The notes beneath the pieces are model-generated. The model searched no databases, was not told the DNA's origin, and worked only from the letters and a program-made list of their open reading frames with translations. Below, one piece after another: positions 3,138 to 10,440 of a stretch of 26,163 nucleotides of DNA; position 1 is the stretch's first letter, and each line of letters begins with the position of its first letter. Source of the DNA: a virus; the IMG/VR virus record IMGVR_UViG_3300027806_000142, positions 1 through 26,163 of that record. One strand, given 5' to 3'. The position numbers were made by a program, and so were the translations under genes.

Positions 3138-3686
3138 TTATGCAGGAAGTTCCGCTCCTTTGCGGGAGCGAGCAGGGCGCTCTGCAGGAAGGTCAGCCGC
3201 ATCCGCAGCTTTCTCCTTCGCAGCAGCATACGCCTGACGAATGGCGTCACCATTGTCATGCGCGCAACGGATGTCTTGCACCTCACCGGTCTGATCCCAG
3301 TACTTGTAGGCAACGATGCGCTCGCCTCCTACGGTACAGAACATGCCGTCCTTACCTGCACGCTTGAAGTAGCGCTTATACGCCTTCTCCTCGTCGGTGT
3401 TCTTACCCATGATCTCCTTGTGGATATGGGCAGGCACCTCAGACTGTGGCCACTCCATGACCACAATGCGACCTGGAAGCTCACCGCCTTTGGCCGACTG
3501 GATGATCTGCTTGAGTACGGGGATGGTACCCAATACAAGGGCCGATCTTTCCTCAGTCTCTGCCCAGCGACCGCCACCCATCTTTAGGGTAGACTGTCTC
3601 ACCTGGATGAAACCGTACTCTGGGTTGTTCTTACTTGCAGTGAATAATGCACCGCTCTCTGTTGGTTGAAGCTTTACTTTGCTCAT
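3138..3686 (-). CDS. Hypothetical protein, 182 aa, paralogue of the 185-aa neighbour
   Basis: Begins MSKVKLQPTESGALFTASKN. It shares a full-length pattern with the protein encoded at 3936-4493: an N-terminal strand-rich part ending in G-R-W-A-E, a central P-G-[RQ]-[IL]-V segment, then GKDG...CT.GG.RI (about residues 110-125), a Q-D...AHDN motif, and a charged tail ADLPAERP.R.RK.AE. The pair therefore arose by tandem duplication. The order (beta-rich body plus a disordered, charged tail) would suit a nucleic-acid-binding or scaffolding role, but I do not recognise the family. Its stop codon lies in the loop of a 6-bp hairpin (3132-3150). Confidence 0.75.
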   Translation of the reverse strand: MSKVKLQPTESGALFTASKNNPEYGFIQVRQSTLKMGGGRWAETEERSALVLGTIPVLKQIIQSAKGGELPGRIVVMEWPQSEVPAHIHKEIMGKNTDEEKAYKRYFKRAGKDGMFCTVGGERIVAYKYWDQTGEVQDIRCAHDNGDAIRQAYAAAKEKAADAADLPAERPARSRKGAELPA

Positions 3687-3935: not shown

Positions 3936-4493
3936 TTAGGCCTCAGCCTTTTTGCGGGTGCGCTTGGGACGCTCAGCAGGAAGATCCGCAGGAGTGTCGG
4001 CAGCCTCAGGAGCTGACTCAGACTTGGCAGCCTTCTTGGCCTCACGCCACGCCTTGATCTCAGCCTGATTGTCATGCGCTACGAGCTTGTCCTGCATGAC
4101 CCCTTGAGGATCATACTCGGTGAAGCGCAGGATACGCACACCACCCGCAGTACAGACAGGGCCGTCTTTCCCTGGGCGCTTGAGGGCATACTTCAGCTGC
4201 TCTTCTCCCTCTTTCTTGGGATTAAGCATCTTGGCATACGCCTCACGCTCGGTCTCTAAATACTCAAGGGTGACAAGCTGACCAGGCACATTGTCCCCAT
4301 AGGCGTCCATCCAAGCTTTGAGGGCCTTGATGTCTCCCATGATGCGGGTGATTCTCGTTTGAGATTCCGCCCAACGCCCATTAGTGATGGCCTTCTCAGA
4401 TACAAGGGCGATTGAACCTTGAGAAGGGTTAGACTTGCTAACACGGATTTTGGCGCCTGATTCAGACGCGAGAACAGAAATTTGAGCTGACAT
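3936..4493 (-). CDS. Hypothetical protein, 185 aa, paralogue of the 182-aa neighbour
   Basis: Begins MSAQISVLASESGAKIRVSK. It aligns end to end with the next gene downstream: NGRWAESQTR versus GGRWAETEER, VPGQLVTLEY versus LPGRIVVMEW, GKDGPVCTAGGVRIL versus GKDGMFCTVGGERIV, VAHDNQAEIKAWREA versus CAHDNGDAIRQAYAA, and the tail ADLPAERPKRTRKKAEA versus ADLPAERPARSRKGAEL. The tail is basic and probably disordered. The intergenic distance to its paralogue is 249 bp with no gene. Function unknown; both are likely early or middle proteins made in quantity. Confidence 0.75.
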   Translation of the reverse strand: MSAQISVLASESGAKIRVSKSNPSQGSIALVSEKAITNGRWAESQTRITRIMGDIKALKAWMDAYGDNVPGQLVTLEYLETEREAYAKMLNPKKEGEEQLKYALKRPGKDGPVCTAGGVRILRFTEYDPQGVMQDKLVAHDNQAEIKAWREAKKAAKSESAPEAADTPADLPAERPKRTRKKAEA

Positions 4494-6442: not shown

Positions 6443-6691
6443 ATGTCAAACACTGAAACTCCTGAAAAGGAAGTATCTCGCGAAGAAGTAGTAGCGTGGT
6501 ACAAAGACCAGATTGAACTGGCAACTCTCCGTGCAGACCTTGCTGAACAGCAAGCCCGTGCTGCCAAATCTGACGCTGAACGCCTGCAGGCCACTTTGTT
6601 CCTGGCCCAGGTTCAACAAAAGCAAAACGAAGCTCCTGCTGACGAGGAGGAAGAAAGTCCTAAAGTAAGGTCATTAAAGAAAGAGAAATAA
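6443..6691 (+). CDS. Coiled-coil hypothetical protein, 82 aa
   Basis: Start chosen at the ATG at 6443 after CTAACCCT (MSNTETPEKEVSREEVVAWY); the open frame further upstream begins with GTG inside the promoter region. Residues 12-68 form a continuous Glu/Gln/Ala-rich helix (IELATLRADLAEQQARAAKS), probably a coiled coil. The tail is charged (EEEESPKVRSLKKEK). Its stop overlaps the start of the GroES-like gene by one base (TAATG), so the two are translationally coupled. Function unknown. Confidence 0.75.
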   Translation: MSNTETPEKEVSREEVVAWYKDQIELATLRADLAEQQARAAKSDAERLQATLFLAQVQQKQNEAPADEEEESPKVRSLKKEK

Positions 6692-6978
6692 TGCTAGAGT
6701 TTAAAGCCCTTAAGGGACGAAGGATTCTTATTGAGAAACCAGAGCGTCCGAAGTCAGCCATTGAGTTGACCCCAGAACAGCAAGCTGCACTGGACCGTGA
6801 GTTCATCAGCAAGTGGACACGTCTTAAAGTGTCTGCGGTTGGTGAAGAAGTAGAAGGTGTAAAAGCAGGGGACGAAGTGTACATCTCTGGCAGCGCGTTG
6901 CAGTCATGCGAAGTGTTACCGTTGGAAGACAAGCATTACCTGATGTTGAACGAATATGAGGTGGCCATTGTGTGGTAA
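6691..6978 (+). CDS. GroES-like co-chaperonin, 95 aa
   Basis: The length and pattern fit a GroES (Cpn10) fold. KALKGRRILIEKPERPKSAI corresponds to the N-terminal R-[IV]-L-[IV]-x-K strand, and a mobile-loop-like variable segment follows at residues 24-45. KVSAVGEEVEGVKAGDEVYI corresponds to the V-x-A-V-G ... V-x-x-G-D-x-V core, and LMLNEYEVAIVW is the terminal strand that reaches the D/E-[VI]-x-A-V end. It would cap the host GroEL ring and adapt it for folding phage proteins, as T4 gp31 does for its capsid protein. The gene is separate from the head genes, and no GroEL is visible. Confidence 0.65.
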   Translation: MLEFKALKGRRILIEKPERPKSAIELTPEQQAALDREFISKWTRLKVSAVGEEVEGVKAGDEVYISGSALQSCEVLPLEDKHYLMLNEYEVAIVW

Positions 6979-6987
6979 CCTCTGGAT

Positions 6988-7062
6988 GGCGGGGTAGACT
7001 GGAGTTGGTCCCAGCTCGGTCTCATAAGCCGAAGTACGCAGGTTCGAGCCCTGCCCCCGCAA
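6988..7062 (+). tRNA. tRNA-Met (CAT anticodon)
   Basis: The acceptor arm GGCGGGG/CCCCGCA pairs at six positions, with a G1-A72 mismatch. The anticodon arm is TCGGT-CTCATAA-GCCGA (anticodon CAT at about 7022-7024). The variable loop is AGTAC and the T-arm is GCAGG-TTCGAGC-CCTGC. The D-arm CTGG/CCAG sits behind a 4-nt TAGA linker instead of the usual 2 nt. The unpaired 1-72 and the GCAA 3' end recall initiator tRNA, but the three G-C pairs of initiators are not complete in the anticodon stem. A lysidine-type Ile tRNA is also possible. CCA is not encoded. Confidence 0.8.
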
Positions 7063-7079
7063 CTACTTTAAAACCAAGT

Positions 7080-7328
7080 ATGGAAAACACAGACATGAGA
7101 ACATTGACACTAGGGGAGTCTAGATGTCATATCAATTTCAATCCATCTTCAGATGACAAGATTGGAACATTCAAACGTATGATGGCAGATGCCATTGATT
7201 ATTGTAACAATGAATTGCTTGGTACAGAAGATGGTGAGGCCAAGCGTTGCTTTAGCATTGCCATGACAGAGTTAGAAACAGCGCAGATGTATGCGGTAAA
7301 GGGCATTGCCAAGGGGCTGAAGAAATGA
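7080..7328 (+). CDS. Acb2/Tad1-hairpin-like protein, candidate anti-CBASS cyclic-nucleotide sponge, 82 aa
   Basis: The open frame extends back through the tRNA, so I start at the ATG at 7080 (MENTDMRTLTLGES); ATG at 7095 is also possible. A polar N-terminus is followed by two helices: DDKIGTFKRMMADAIDYCNN and GEAKRCFSIAMTELETAQMY-AVKGIAKG. The second matches the S-I-A-[MI]-T-x-L-E-x-A-x-M-x-A-V-K signature of the Acb2/Tad1 helical-hairpin family. Known Acb2 proteins form hexamers that bind cyclic di- and trinucleotides and so shut off CBASS immunity. The next gene, Tad2, overlaps it by ATGA, which supports an anti-defence role. No binding residues can be checked without alignment. Confidence 0.7.
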   Translation: MENTDMRTLTLGESRCHINFNPSSDDKIGTFKRMMADAIDYCNNELLGTEDGEAKRCFSIAMTELETAQMYAVKGIAKGLKK

Positions 7329-7615
7329 GCAATCTAAGTTATGGTCAAGCGCTTGAAGCGCTAAAAGCTGGTAAGCGCGCTTGCCGTGCCGGCTGGAATG
7401 GTAAAGGGATGTGGGTTGCTTTGGGTGAAGGAAACCCTGCACTAGAAGCAGAGAAGTTCTGGAATCCTCACACCCGTGCATTTGCAGAACAAAACGGTGG
7501 TACTGCTGAAGTATTGCCATATATCTTGTTCAAAACCGCAGACAACAAGATCCTGATGGGATGGCTTGCCTCTCAGACGGACATGCTGTCTGAAGACTGG
7601 ATGATTTTAGATTAA
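7325..7615 (+). CDS. tad2: DUF2829 / Tad2-family anti-Thoeris protein, 96 aa
   Basis: This is a textbook DUF2829 domain over the full length. It begins LSYGQALEALKAGKRACRAG and continues with the hallmark R-A-G-W-N-G-K-G-M (about residues 21-29), a variable loop, Y-I-L-F-K-T-A-D-N-K, and the closing W-L-A-S-Q-T-D-M-L-S-E-D-W. Tad2 proteins assemble as tetramers that sequester the 1''-3' gcADPR signal made by Thoeris ThsB; some also bind CBASS cyclic dinucleotides. Start ATG overlaps the Acb2-like stop (ATGA), so the two proteins should be co-translated. A tRNA gene follows 10 nt after the stop. Confidence 0.85.
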   Translation: MSNLSYGQALEALKAGKRACRAGWNGKGMWVALGEGNPALEAEKFWNPHTRAFAEQNGGTAEVLPYILFKTADNKILMGWLASQTDMLSEDWMILD

Positions 7616-7625
7616 GAATCCACTT

Positions 7626-7706
7626 TGTGCAGTTGAGCAACTGGTTGGCTCGCCAGACTGTAAATCTGGTCCGTGAGGCTTGGGGGTTCGAGTCCCTCCT
7701 GCACAA
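7626..7706 (+). tRNA. tRNA-Tyr (GTA anticodon)
   Basis: Acceptor TGTGCAG/CTGCACA pairs fully. The D-arm is GAGC/GCTC, the anticodon arm is CCAGA-CTGTAAA-TCTGG with anticodon GTA, and a 13-nt variable arm is typical of bacterial tRNA-Tyr. The T-arm is GGGGG-TTCGAGT-CCCTC, with discriminator A and no encoded CCA. All arms are intact, so the tRNA should be functional. Confidence 0.93.
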
Positions 7707-7763
7707 CGACATGAAAAACCACATGGTATCGCGCACTGGGCGAAGCTTAAAGTTAACCACATC

Positions 7764-7848
7764 TGCTGTCGGGTGGGGCAGCTCGTCACAAATACTGGCA
7801 ACATTTGTGACAACGGGTGTTATCCAGGTGCAAGTCCTGGGTGCAGCG
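7764..7848 (+). ncRNA. tRNA-like structured element or degenerate tRNA
   Basis: The element contains a T-arm-like hairpin ATCCAGG-TGCAAGT-CCTGGGT (7822-7842), whose loop differs from the tRNA consensus TTCAAGT at one base. It also contains a 9-bp hairpin GTCACAAAT/ATTTGTGAC (7785-7811) with a 9-nt loop. GCTG (7765-7768) can pair either locally with CAGC (7779-7782) as a D-arm, or with CAGC (7844-7847) as a closing stem. No arrangement gives a full acceptor arm, so this is not a canonical tRNA. Confidence 0.45.
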
Positions 7849-7866
7849 ATACAATACTAAAGACCT

Positions 7867-8924: not shown

Positions 8925-9772
8925 TGTCCTTAGTATTTGAACCTTCAACCCACTCGTACAAAAGCATTGACGCTTCTGATGCGACACTCTGGACCAGTGT
9001 CACTACACTGATCGGACACCTCAAACAACCTTTTGACAGCAACGCGGTAGCGAAAAAAAGCGCGGCTAACAAAAAGGGTAAATGGTATGGTATGACGGTG
9101 GAACAGATACAAGCTGCCTGGAAGAAAGAATCTGACAGGGCTTGTAGCCTGGGAAACTGGTACCATGACCAGCGGGAGCAGGACATCACCGGCTGCACAA
9201 CCTTGAATCGTCACAACAAGGAGCTGCCGGTGATCCGTCCCATGTTTGATGAGAACGGAAAAAAGATGGCGCCTTCTCAGAAACTGATTGAAGGTATCTA
9301 TCCAGAGCACATGGTGTATTTACGCTCAGCAGGGATCTGCGGACAGTCAGACCTGGTGGAGGTTGCGGATGGACAGGTGCACATCACCGACTACAAAACC
9401 AACAAGGAGATCAAAGCAGAGTCGTTCAAGAACTGGGAGGGCATCTCACAGAAGATGGGCTTTCCGGTATCACACCTGGACGACTGTAACCTGAACCACT
9501 ACAACCTCCAGCTGAGCATTTACATGTACATGATCCTGAAGCATAATCCCAACCTCAAGGCGGGAAAGCTTACCATCCACCACATCGTGTTTGAAGAGGA
9601 AGAGGAGAAAGATGAGTTTGGTTATCCCATTAGCAAACTGGATAGTAACGGAGAACCCATCGTAAAAGAGGTGATTCCCTATGAGTTGCCGTATCTTAAA
9701 GATGAGGTCCTCTCTATCATGAGCTGGTACAAGGACAACGCAGCTATGCTGCAAAAGAAAAAGAAAAAGTGA
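8924..9772 (+). CDS. PD-(D/E)XK nuclease (RecB/Cas4-like), 282 aa
   Basis: The active-site motifs appear in the expected order. G77-N-W-Y-H81-x3-E85 is equivalent to the G-x-x-x-H-x-x-x-E helix. G-Q-S-D143 is the first acidic metal ligand. I-T-D156-Y-K158-T-N-K is the D-x-K core, and Q196-L-S-I-Y200 is the Q-x-x-x-Y motif. This arrangement is typical of RecB/Cas4-type exonuclease folds. The C-terminus ends in a lysine run (QKKKKK). A phage enzyme of this kind could process replication or recombination intermediates, or degrade host DNA; no Fe-S cysteine set is seen. Its stop overlaps the next start (GTGA). Confidence 0.8.
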   Translation: MSLVFEPSTHSYKSIDASDATLWTSVTTLIGHLKQPFDSNAVAKKSAANKKGKWYGMTVEQIQAAWKKESDRACSLGNWYHDQREQDITGCTTLNRHNKELPVIRPMFDENGKKMAPSQKLIEGIYPEHMVYLRSAGICGQSDLVEVADGQVHITDYKTNKEIKAESFKNWEGISQKMGFPVSHLDDCNLNHYNLQLSIYMYMILKHNPNLKAGKLTIHHIVFEEEEEKDEFGYPISKLDSNGEPIVKEVIPYELPYLKDEVLSIMSWYKDNAAMLQKKKKK

Positions 9773-10440
9773 AAGTGCACTTTGACCACATAGAAGGTTT
9801 TGGTAAGGTCTCTGACTTAGACTTTATCTACTCCGCGCCCTATGGAATCCTGGAGCCAGGAGAATCTGGCGCGGATGCACTCAAAGAAGGGTGGATCCCT
9901 TGGGGTTCTGAATGGTATAACCTGCGCAGTGTACGCCTGGACCTTTCCTTATACCGTCCGTCTGAAACAGTCAAAAGGCTGAGTAAGAAGGTGACTGCCC
10001 GCCCTGGTGATTTCATTCTGCACCAGGACGCATACAAAAAAATTTACGAGCAATACTGTGCGTACCATGGATTTGCCAGGGATATACAGTGGGAACACTT
10101 TGAAGGTTGCCAGTGTATTGAGTATTGGCACGATGACAAGCTGGCCGGTGTAAGTTTTTACAAAACCTATGATGACCAGTTTGTGGCCATGCAGTTCATA
10201 TCCAACTATGAACATCCTGGTCTGTCGCTGGGTAACATTGCCCAAATGCACGAATGCAATCTGGCTTCTCAGCTGCACTGCACGCACGTGTATCTGCTGG
10301 GAGGTTATGAGAAATGCTGTCGCTACAAGGCAGGGTTCAAAGGTTTTGAGTTCTGGACAGGAGCTGGGTGGAGCGCTGATATAGAGCTGTACTATCACCT
10401 GGTAGAGCGGGATGAACAAATACAAGTCACGCTGCTATGA
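9769..10440 (+). CDS. Arginyl-tRNA-protein transferase (ATE)-like GNAT-fold protein, 223 aa
   Basis: The start is GTG at 9769, overlapping the nuclease stop. The C-terminal half matches the ATE/aminoacyl-transferase GNAT-type fold: LAGVSFYKT, then PGLSLGNIAQMHECNLASQL (residues 150-169), then T-H-V-Y-L-L-G-G-Y, and R-Y-K-A-G-F-K-G-F-E (residues 185-194), equivalent to the S-L-G ... E-x-x-x-A ... Y-L-G-Y ... M-x-Y-K-x-x-F-x-P pattern. The zinc-binding N-terminal domain of true ATE is absent. If active it would move an aminoacyl group from tRNA to a protein or small acceptor, perhaps tagging for the N-degron pathway. A more general acetyltransferase role is possible. Confidence 0.6.
   Translation: MKVHFDHIEGFGKVSDLDFIYSAPYGILEPGESGADALKEGWIPWGSEWYNLRSVRLDLSLYRPSETVKRLSKKVTARPGDFILHQDAYKKIYEQYCAYHGFARDIQWEHFEGCQCIEYWHDDKLAGVSFYKTYDDQFVAMQFISNYEHPGLSLGNIAQMHECNLASQLHCTHVYLLGGYEKCCRYKAGFKGFEFWTGAGWSADIELYYHLVERDEQIQVTLL

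Follow-up and report, generated by a model that had tools for sequence, protein, structure and literature searches.

We propose that the DNA analyzed here probably encodes a two-sponge anti-defense cassette, with an Acb2-family gene as the constant first gene and an exchangeable anti-Thoeris gene in the second slot. The stretch, hereafter the window, is a virus record of 26,163 bases (IMGVR_UViG_3300027806_000142, positions 1 to 26,163), which we treat as a fragment of a crAss-like phage because its terminase is ~25% identical to those of crAss-like phages and related Flavobacterium phages, and because an HU/IHF-like gene (a weak match, below the cut-off) is followed by the terminase and then by a series of portal/capsid-sized genes. 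The features central to the argument are:

6988 to 7063, plus strand: tRNA-Met (CAT), detected by ARAGORN and Rfam; left border of the insertion, also present in relatives with an empty site
7080 to 7328, plus strand: Acb2/Tad1-hairpin family protein of 82 aa (PF24729), a probable cyclic-nucleotide sponge
7325 to 7328, plus strand: ATGA overlap of the Acb2 stop and the Tad2 start, read from the sequence
7325 to 7615, plus strand: Tad2 family protein of 96 aa (PF11195 and matches to solved Tad2 proteins), a probable gcADPR sponge
7626 to 7707, plus strand: tRNA-Tyr (GTA), detected by ARAGORN and Rfam
7064 to 7710 (boundaries approximate), plus strand: inserted block Acb2–Tad2–tRNA-Tyr relative to the empty site of lineage L286, from flank alignment with L286 and L285

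The first-pass annotation had described two tightly coupled genes overlapping by ATGA and bracketed by the two tRNA genes; the shared four nucleotides confirm the overlap, the tight coupling is supported, and the two tRNA searches recover the bracketing genes. An alternative Acb2 start exists (ATG at 7095), while the start at 7080 is kept in lineages L083 and L094. These lineages also keep the pair itself, with Acb2 95% and Tad2 99% identical in L083, and 82% and 42% identical, respectively, in L094. As a tandem of Acb2 with Tad2 or a RyR domain recurs in further lineages too, the association goes beyond chance.

The Acb2-family and Tad2 proteins

The claim that the 82-aa protein carries the Acb2/Tad1 hairpin holds at the family level, with a match to PF24729 (Acb2_Tad1_hairpin) above the curated cut-off (39.9 bits against 27; E 4.9e-10). 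Its AlphaFold2 model (pLDDT 90.9) comprises one short N-terminal helix (H11-15) and two long antiparallel helices (H26-48 and H52-80) and lacks the beta domain of Tad1; Acb2 has likewise been described as a short helix followed by two long ones (PMC10419184, PMC12043709). On domain and fold layout, we thus assign the protein to the Acb2 family, with a putative ligand. Direct comparisons with solved structures returned little: Foldseek searches of the PDB with two AlphaFold2 models gave nothing below E 1 and left Acb2 outside the top 50, a two-helix monomer being a weakly discriminating query, and phmmer with the single sequence recovered chance-level matches only. When a profile of 41 subfamily relatives, with T4 excluded, was searched against the PDB, T4 Vs.4/Acb2 ranked first (E 0.011) and PaP2 p26 was also listed (E 0.77). 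Further, hhalign aligned the subfamily in register with 17 T4-type Acb2 proteins along the C-terminal helix (E 4.5e-4). The link to the solved Acb2 proteins (T4 Vs.4, PaP2 p26) is thus one of Pfam-level similarity and weak direct matches. Neither of the two window proteins matched any family in an NCBIfam search.

The canonical Acb2 proteins display an IKGY-x14-K motif, with the lysine 15 residues past the tyrosine (Y8/K23 in T4; Y11/K26 in PaP2). In the Pseudomonas phage protein, the canonical ligand residues are Tyr11 and Lys26, and PaP2 p26 indeed has a tyrosine at position 11 and a lysine at 26. The window protein belongs to a subfamily typified by FNPS...K and TAQM-AVK, in which FNPS-x8-K replaces the canonical motif and an invariant lysine lies 12 residues past the phenylalanine; accordingly, Phe20 and Lys32 appear to stand for the Tyr/Lys pair, with the lysine about one helical turn earlier. 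The invariant positions of the subfamily are G12, N21, P22, K32, R56, A61, A68, Q69, M70, V73 and K74. Given the absence of the exact Tyr/Lys pattern and the failure of Foldseek to retrieve a solved Acb2, the ligand is the weakest step of our proposal. In sum, the window protein resembles the anti-CBASS sponge Acb2 (T4 Vs.4; PaP2 p26) in its PF24729 domain, its size class (80-95 aa), its short and two long antiparallel helices and its phage provenance, but differs in its FNPS...K motif, in the remoteness of the similarity and in having an anti-Thoeris gene directly downstream.

For the 96-aa protein, the full DUF2829/Tad2 signature that had been reported is amply supported: it matches PF11195 (Tad2-like) over positions 2-73 of the 73-position profile (85.2 bits against a cut-off of 25; E 4.4e-24) and seven solved Tad2-family sequences at 6e-14 or better, the best being SptTad2 (8wjd; 9e-19). 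These seven matches put its Tad2 homology beyond doubt, and its GWNGKGM and WLASQTDM..EDW motifs align with those of the solved proteins. It is a full-length counterpart of the known Thoeris anti-defense sponges (SptTad2, SPO1 Gp34.65 and others); what sets it apart is its setting in a crAss-like phage, where it follows an Acb2 gene as the second member of an overlapping pair.

The 82-aa gene has relatives at 30 to about 36 viral loci. They are 64-100% identical, and their phages mostly share few or no other genes with the window; moreover, the otherwise unrelated L084 and L085 are 91% identical in DNA over a match the size of the Acb2 gene alone. The Acb2 gene spreads as a unit. The cellular genome collection searched for this subfamily yielded no relative, and therefore no host link.

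Recurrent Acb2-led pairs and partner exchange

To survey such pairings, we prepared profiles of three kinds (Acb2, Tad2 and phage RyR domains), used them to scan loci collected around each kind, grouped these loci into lineages by shared DNA with one representative apiece, and scored a Tad2 or RyR gene as a partner if it lay no more than 600 bp downstream of Acb2 on the same strand. A partner directly downstream was found in 12 of the 79 Acb2 lineages, and in one more (L117) a RyR domain is fused in front of Acb2; no Tad2 or RyR partner was detected in the other 66. Across the other 585 kb of flanking DNA in these representatives, no further Tad2 or RyR turned up, giving a Fisher value of 4e-13 for the excess in the downstream slot, with the number of flank genes approximated at one per 600 bp. 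In a Pfam scan of 59 genes directly downstream of Acb2 (the alignment used also held one non-downstream protein, the family-14 member of L094), Tad2 (7) and RyR (6) were the commonest families, followed by PF21825 (2), with no further family above two. The junctions are frequently tight: Acb2 and its partner overlap by 4 nt in the window, L084, L085 and L094 (all Tad2) and in L088 (RyR), and by 1 nt in L103 and L109 (RyR) and L111 (Tad2), while several other lineages have gaps of 1-18 nt. RyR domains occur in L088, L103, L105, L109 and L117, with that of L105 fused to Tad2 two genes after Acb2; the HMM scan of the window detected no RyR (PF02026-type) domain. As the Acb2 genes of many unrelated phages carry Tad2 or RyR in the same adjoining position, the arrangement looks selected rather than accidental.

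The Acb2 gene stays nearly constant while different partners replace one another beside it, even among close relatives. Thus, L084 and L105 share 82% DNA identity over the 3.7 kb downstream of the cassette and 81% in the Acb2 gene, and yet L084 has an 87-aa Tad2, whereas L105 has a family-14 gene and the RyR-Tad2 fusion. Likewise, in the comparison of the window with L094, most nearby proteins are 65-99% identical, and the 82% identity of Acb2 contrasts with the 42% of Tad2. The window Tad2 is in turn 79% identical to an unpaired Tad2 from L002.

A single ancestral Acb2–Tad2 operon was considered as the source of these pairs and rejected. In the Tad2 tree the window protein nests among unpaired versions, apart from the other paired ones, and in the RyR tree the Acb2-linked domains are scattered, both trees being built from short alignments and including some long branches. 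Since they split the paired proteins, repeated assembly is likelier than one inherited operon.

Other small genes also accompany Acb2. A family of ~112-aa proteins, with no Pfam or PHROG match, recurs beside it (L094:4469-4807, L095:714-1097, L105:1479-1820 and the gene before Acb2 in L084), the L105 member overlapping Acb2 by ATGA; and a 70-aa PF21825 protein (crAss001_48-related) overlaps the Acb2 stop in L090 (5246-5458) and L093 (5237-5449). Both are candidate anti-defense genes. The gene after Acb2 in L104 (5272-5619) shows a sub-threshold second match to the Acb2/Tad1 hairpin (E 0.0013), a possible double hairpin sponge. In 6 of 24 lineages of the window's Acb2 subfamily, a GroES-like gene is found no more than 1.5 kb from Acb2, in varying order, and a GroES also sits near the Acb2 of phage DSL-LC05; the window has such a co-chaperonin candidate at 6691-6978 (plus strand).

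The insertion site between tRNA genes

The suggestion that the tRNA interval is an accessory hot spot is borne out by close relatives with an empty site, which reveal Acb2–Tad2–tRNA-Tyr to be an insertion. In L286 (terminase 92% identical), tRNA-Met is followed directly by an intergenic RNA element and then a wHTH gene; L285 (terminase 94%) has the same order, its contig beginning inside tRNA-Met; and in L287-L291 no Acb2, Tad2 or tRNA-Tyr was found between tRNA-Met and the wHTH gene. As in the window, tRNA-Met adjoins the GroES-like gene in L286 and L287-L291. The block occupies the same place in the window and in L094/L292. Lineages with the cassette (window/L082/L083 and L094/L292) carry tRNA-Tyr, which was not found at the site in relatives lacking the cassette; in the former it travels with the cassette. 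Around the insert, a search for direct repeats gave only short imperfect ones and no convincing attachment sites.

Between tRNA-Tyr and the wHTH gene lies a structured RNA candidate (7725-7856, plus strand; fold z-score -2.7), which is kept in L285, L286 and L289-L292, even without the cassette. The stem that closes it seems to be preserved despite differing sequences: GTATCGCGCAC/GTGCaGCGATAC in the window, GTATCCTG/CAGGATAC in L286 and GTGTTCTT/AAGAACAC in L289. An Rfam search of this region returned only tRNA and one chance-level match. Elsewhere in the window, the gene at 9769-10440 (plus strand) encodes an arginyl-tRNA-protein transferase C-terminal domain (PF04377; E 2.5e-7), unusual for a phage; found in L285 and L292 and not in L286-L291, it is another accessory gene. 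Two neighboring paralogous genes for proteins of ~183 aa (3138-3686 and 3936-4493, minus strand) vary in copies among relatives.

Proposed action and competing readings

In the mechanism that we favor, one transcript would yield two small proteins from the overlapping genes, probably by coupled translation. The Acb2-family hairpin would hold the cyclic di- and trinucleotides of CBASS and related systems, and Tad2 the gcADPR of Thoeris and possibly some cyclic dinucleotides; with the host second messengers so held, the effectors would stay off and the infected cell would not abort, to the phage's benefit against both CBASS and Thoeris. Acb2 is known as a hexamer that binds cyclic di- and trinucleotides, and Tad2 as a tetramer that sequesters gcADPR. 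The cassette, with its tRNA-Tyr, was inserted between the resident tRNA-Met and the conserved RNA element, and more widely an Acb2-family gene comes first in such cassettes, with Tad2, a RyR domain or a RyR-Tad2 fusion in the second slot. Besides gcADPR, Tad2 proteins described in the literature bind some cyclic dinucleotides but no trinucleotides, whereas Acb2 binds both (PMC12043709). The division of labor in the pair may therefore not be clean; despite the overlap, the pair would still widen the range of signals covered.

The main rival to this two-sponge reading holds that the 82-aa hairpin binds another ligand (e.g., an ADPR signal, like Tad1) or has a different role, such as helping its partner, with Tad2 as the only active sponge. 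The divergent ligand motif and the weak direct similarity to solved Acb2 are consistent with this, as is the occurrence of the Pfam hairpin in Tad1, a gcADPR binder (PMC12043709), and the anti-Thoeris nature of both of the commonest recognized partners. However, the protein has the size and helix layout of Acb2 and no Tad1 beta domain, and its conservation across phages, together with the gene-sized match of L084 and L085, indicates a selected stand-alone function; hence, we regard this rival as possible but rather unlikely. That the 82-aa ORF is a chance pattern match and no real Acb2-family gene could be argued from its short, helical nature and the negative Foldseek result, but its conservation already contradicts this: with the Pfam cut-off passed, relatives at viral loci, 11 invariant positions and gene-sized conservation between unrelated phages, we give the idea almost no credence.

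It might also be held that two ordinary accessory anti-defense genes have become neighbors in a variable tRNA interval and do not function as a pair. Insertion does occur in this interval, the family-14 and PF21825 proteins show that other small genes settle near Acb2, and Tad2 relatives of the window subfamily seldom adjoin Acb2 (0 of 52 lineages). Against this stand the restriction of Tad2 and RyR, across the representative flanks, to the slot next after Acb2 or to a fusion with it, the frequent 1-4 nt overlaps and the origin of the pairings on more than one occasion, which make such an unlinked neighborhood improbable. More tentatively, and with considerable doubt on our part, the two-sponge cassette might be extended to a modular, Acb2-headed operon that swaps Thoeris-signal modules (Tad2, RyR and fusions), possibly a split Tad1-like unit in which the hairpin and an ADPR-binding protein physically join. 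Tad1 itself joins the same helical hairpin and an ADPR-signal-binding module in one polypeptide, and the RyR-Acb2 fusion of L117 is laid out similarly, whereas in the window the two parts are encoded apart, by exchangeable genes. If such an operon exists, the PF21825, family-14 and L086-type 104-aa proteins found in the same slot would be new anti-defense proteins.

Each component of the cassette is of an already known kind. Phage RyR-domain proteins (PF02026), including RyDEP, the alternative occupants of the downstream slot elsewhere, degrade or sequester Thoeris cADPR signals according to a 2026 preprint (PMC13232231), the text of which mentions neither Acb2 nor Tad2. We found no description of the recurrent, partner-swapping, Acb2-led arrangement in the open-access papers searched. 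By tying an anti-CBASS-type sponge to anti-Thoeris proteins through gene order, this arrangement: (i) suggests that phages often must silence both signal families together; (ii) supports, on independent genomic grounds, a role of RyR-domain proteins in inhibiting Thoeris; (iii) offers a simple rule for finding more anti-defense proteins, namely to look at the gene directly after Acb2; and (iv) shows that crAss-like phages, too, have such a cassette, located at a defined insertion site.
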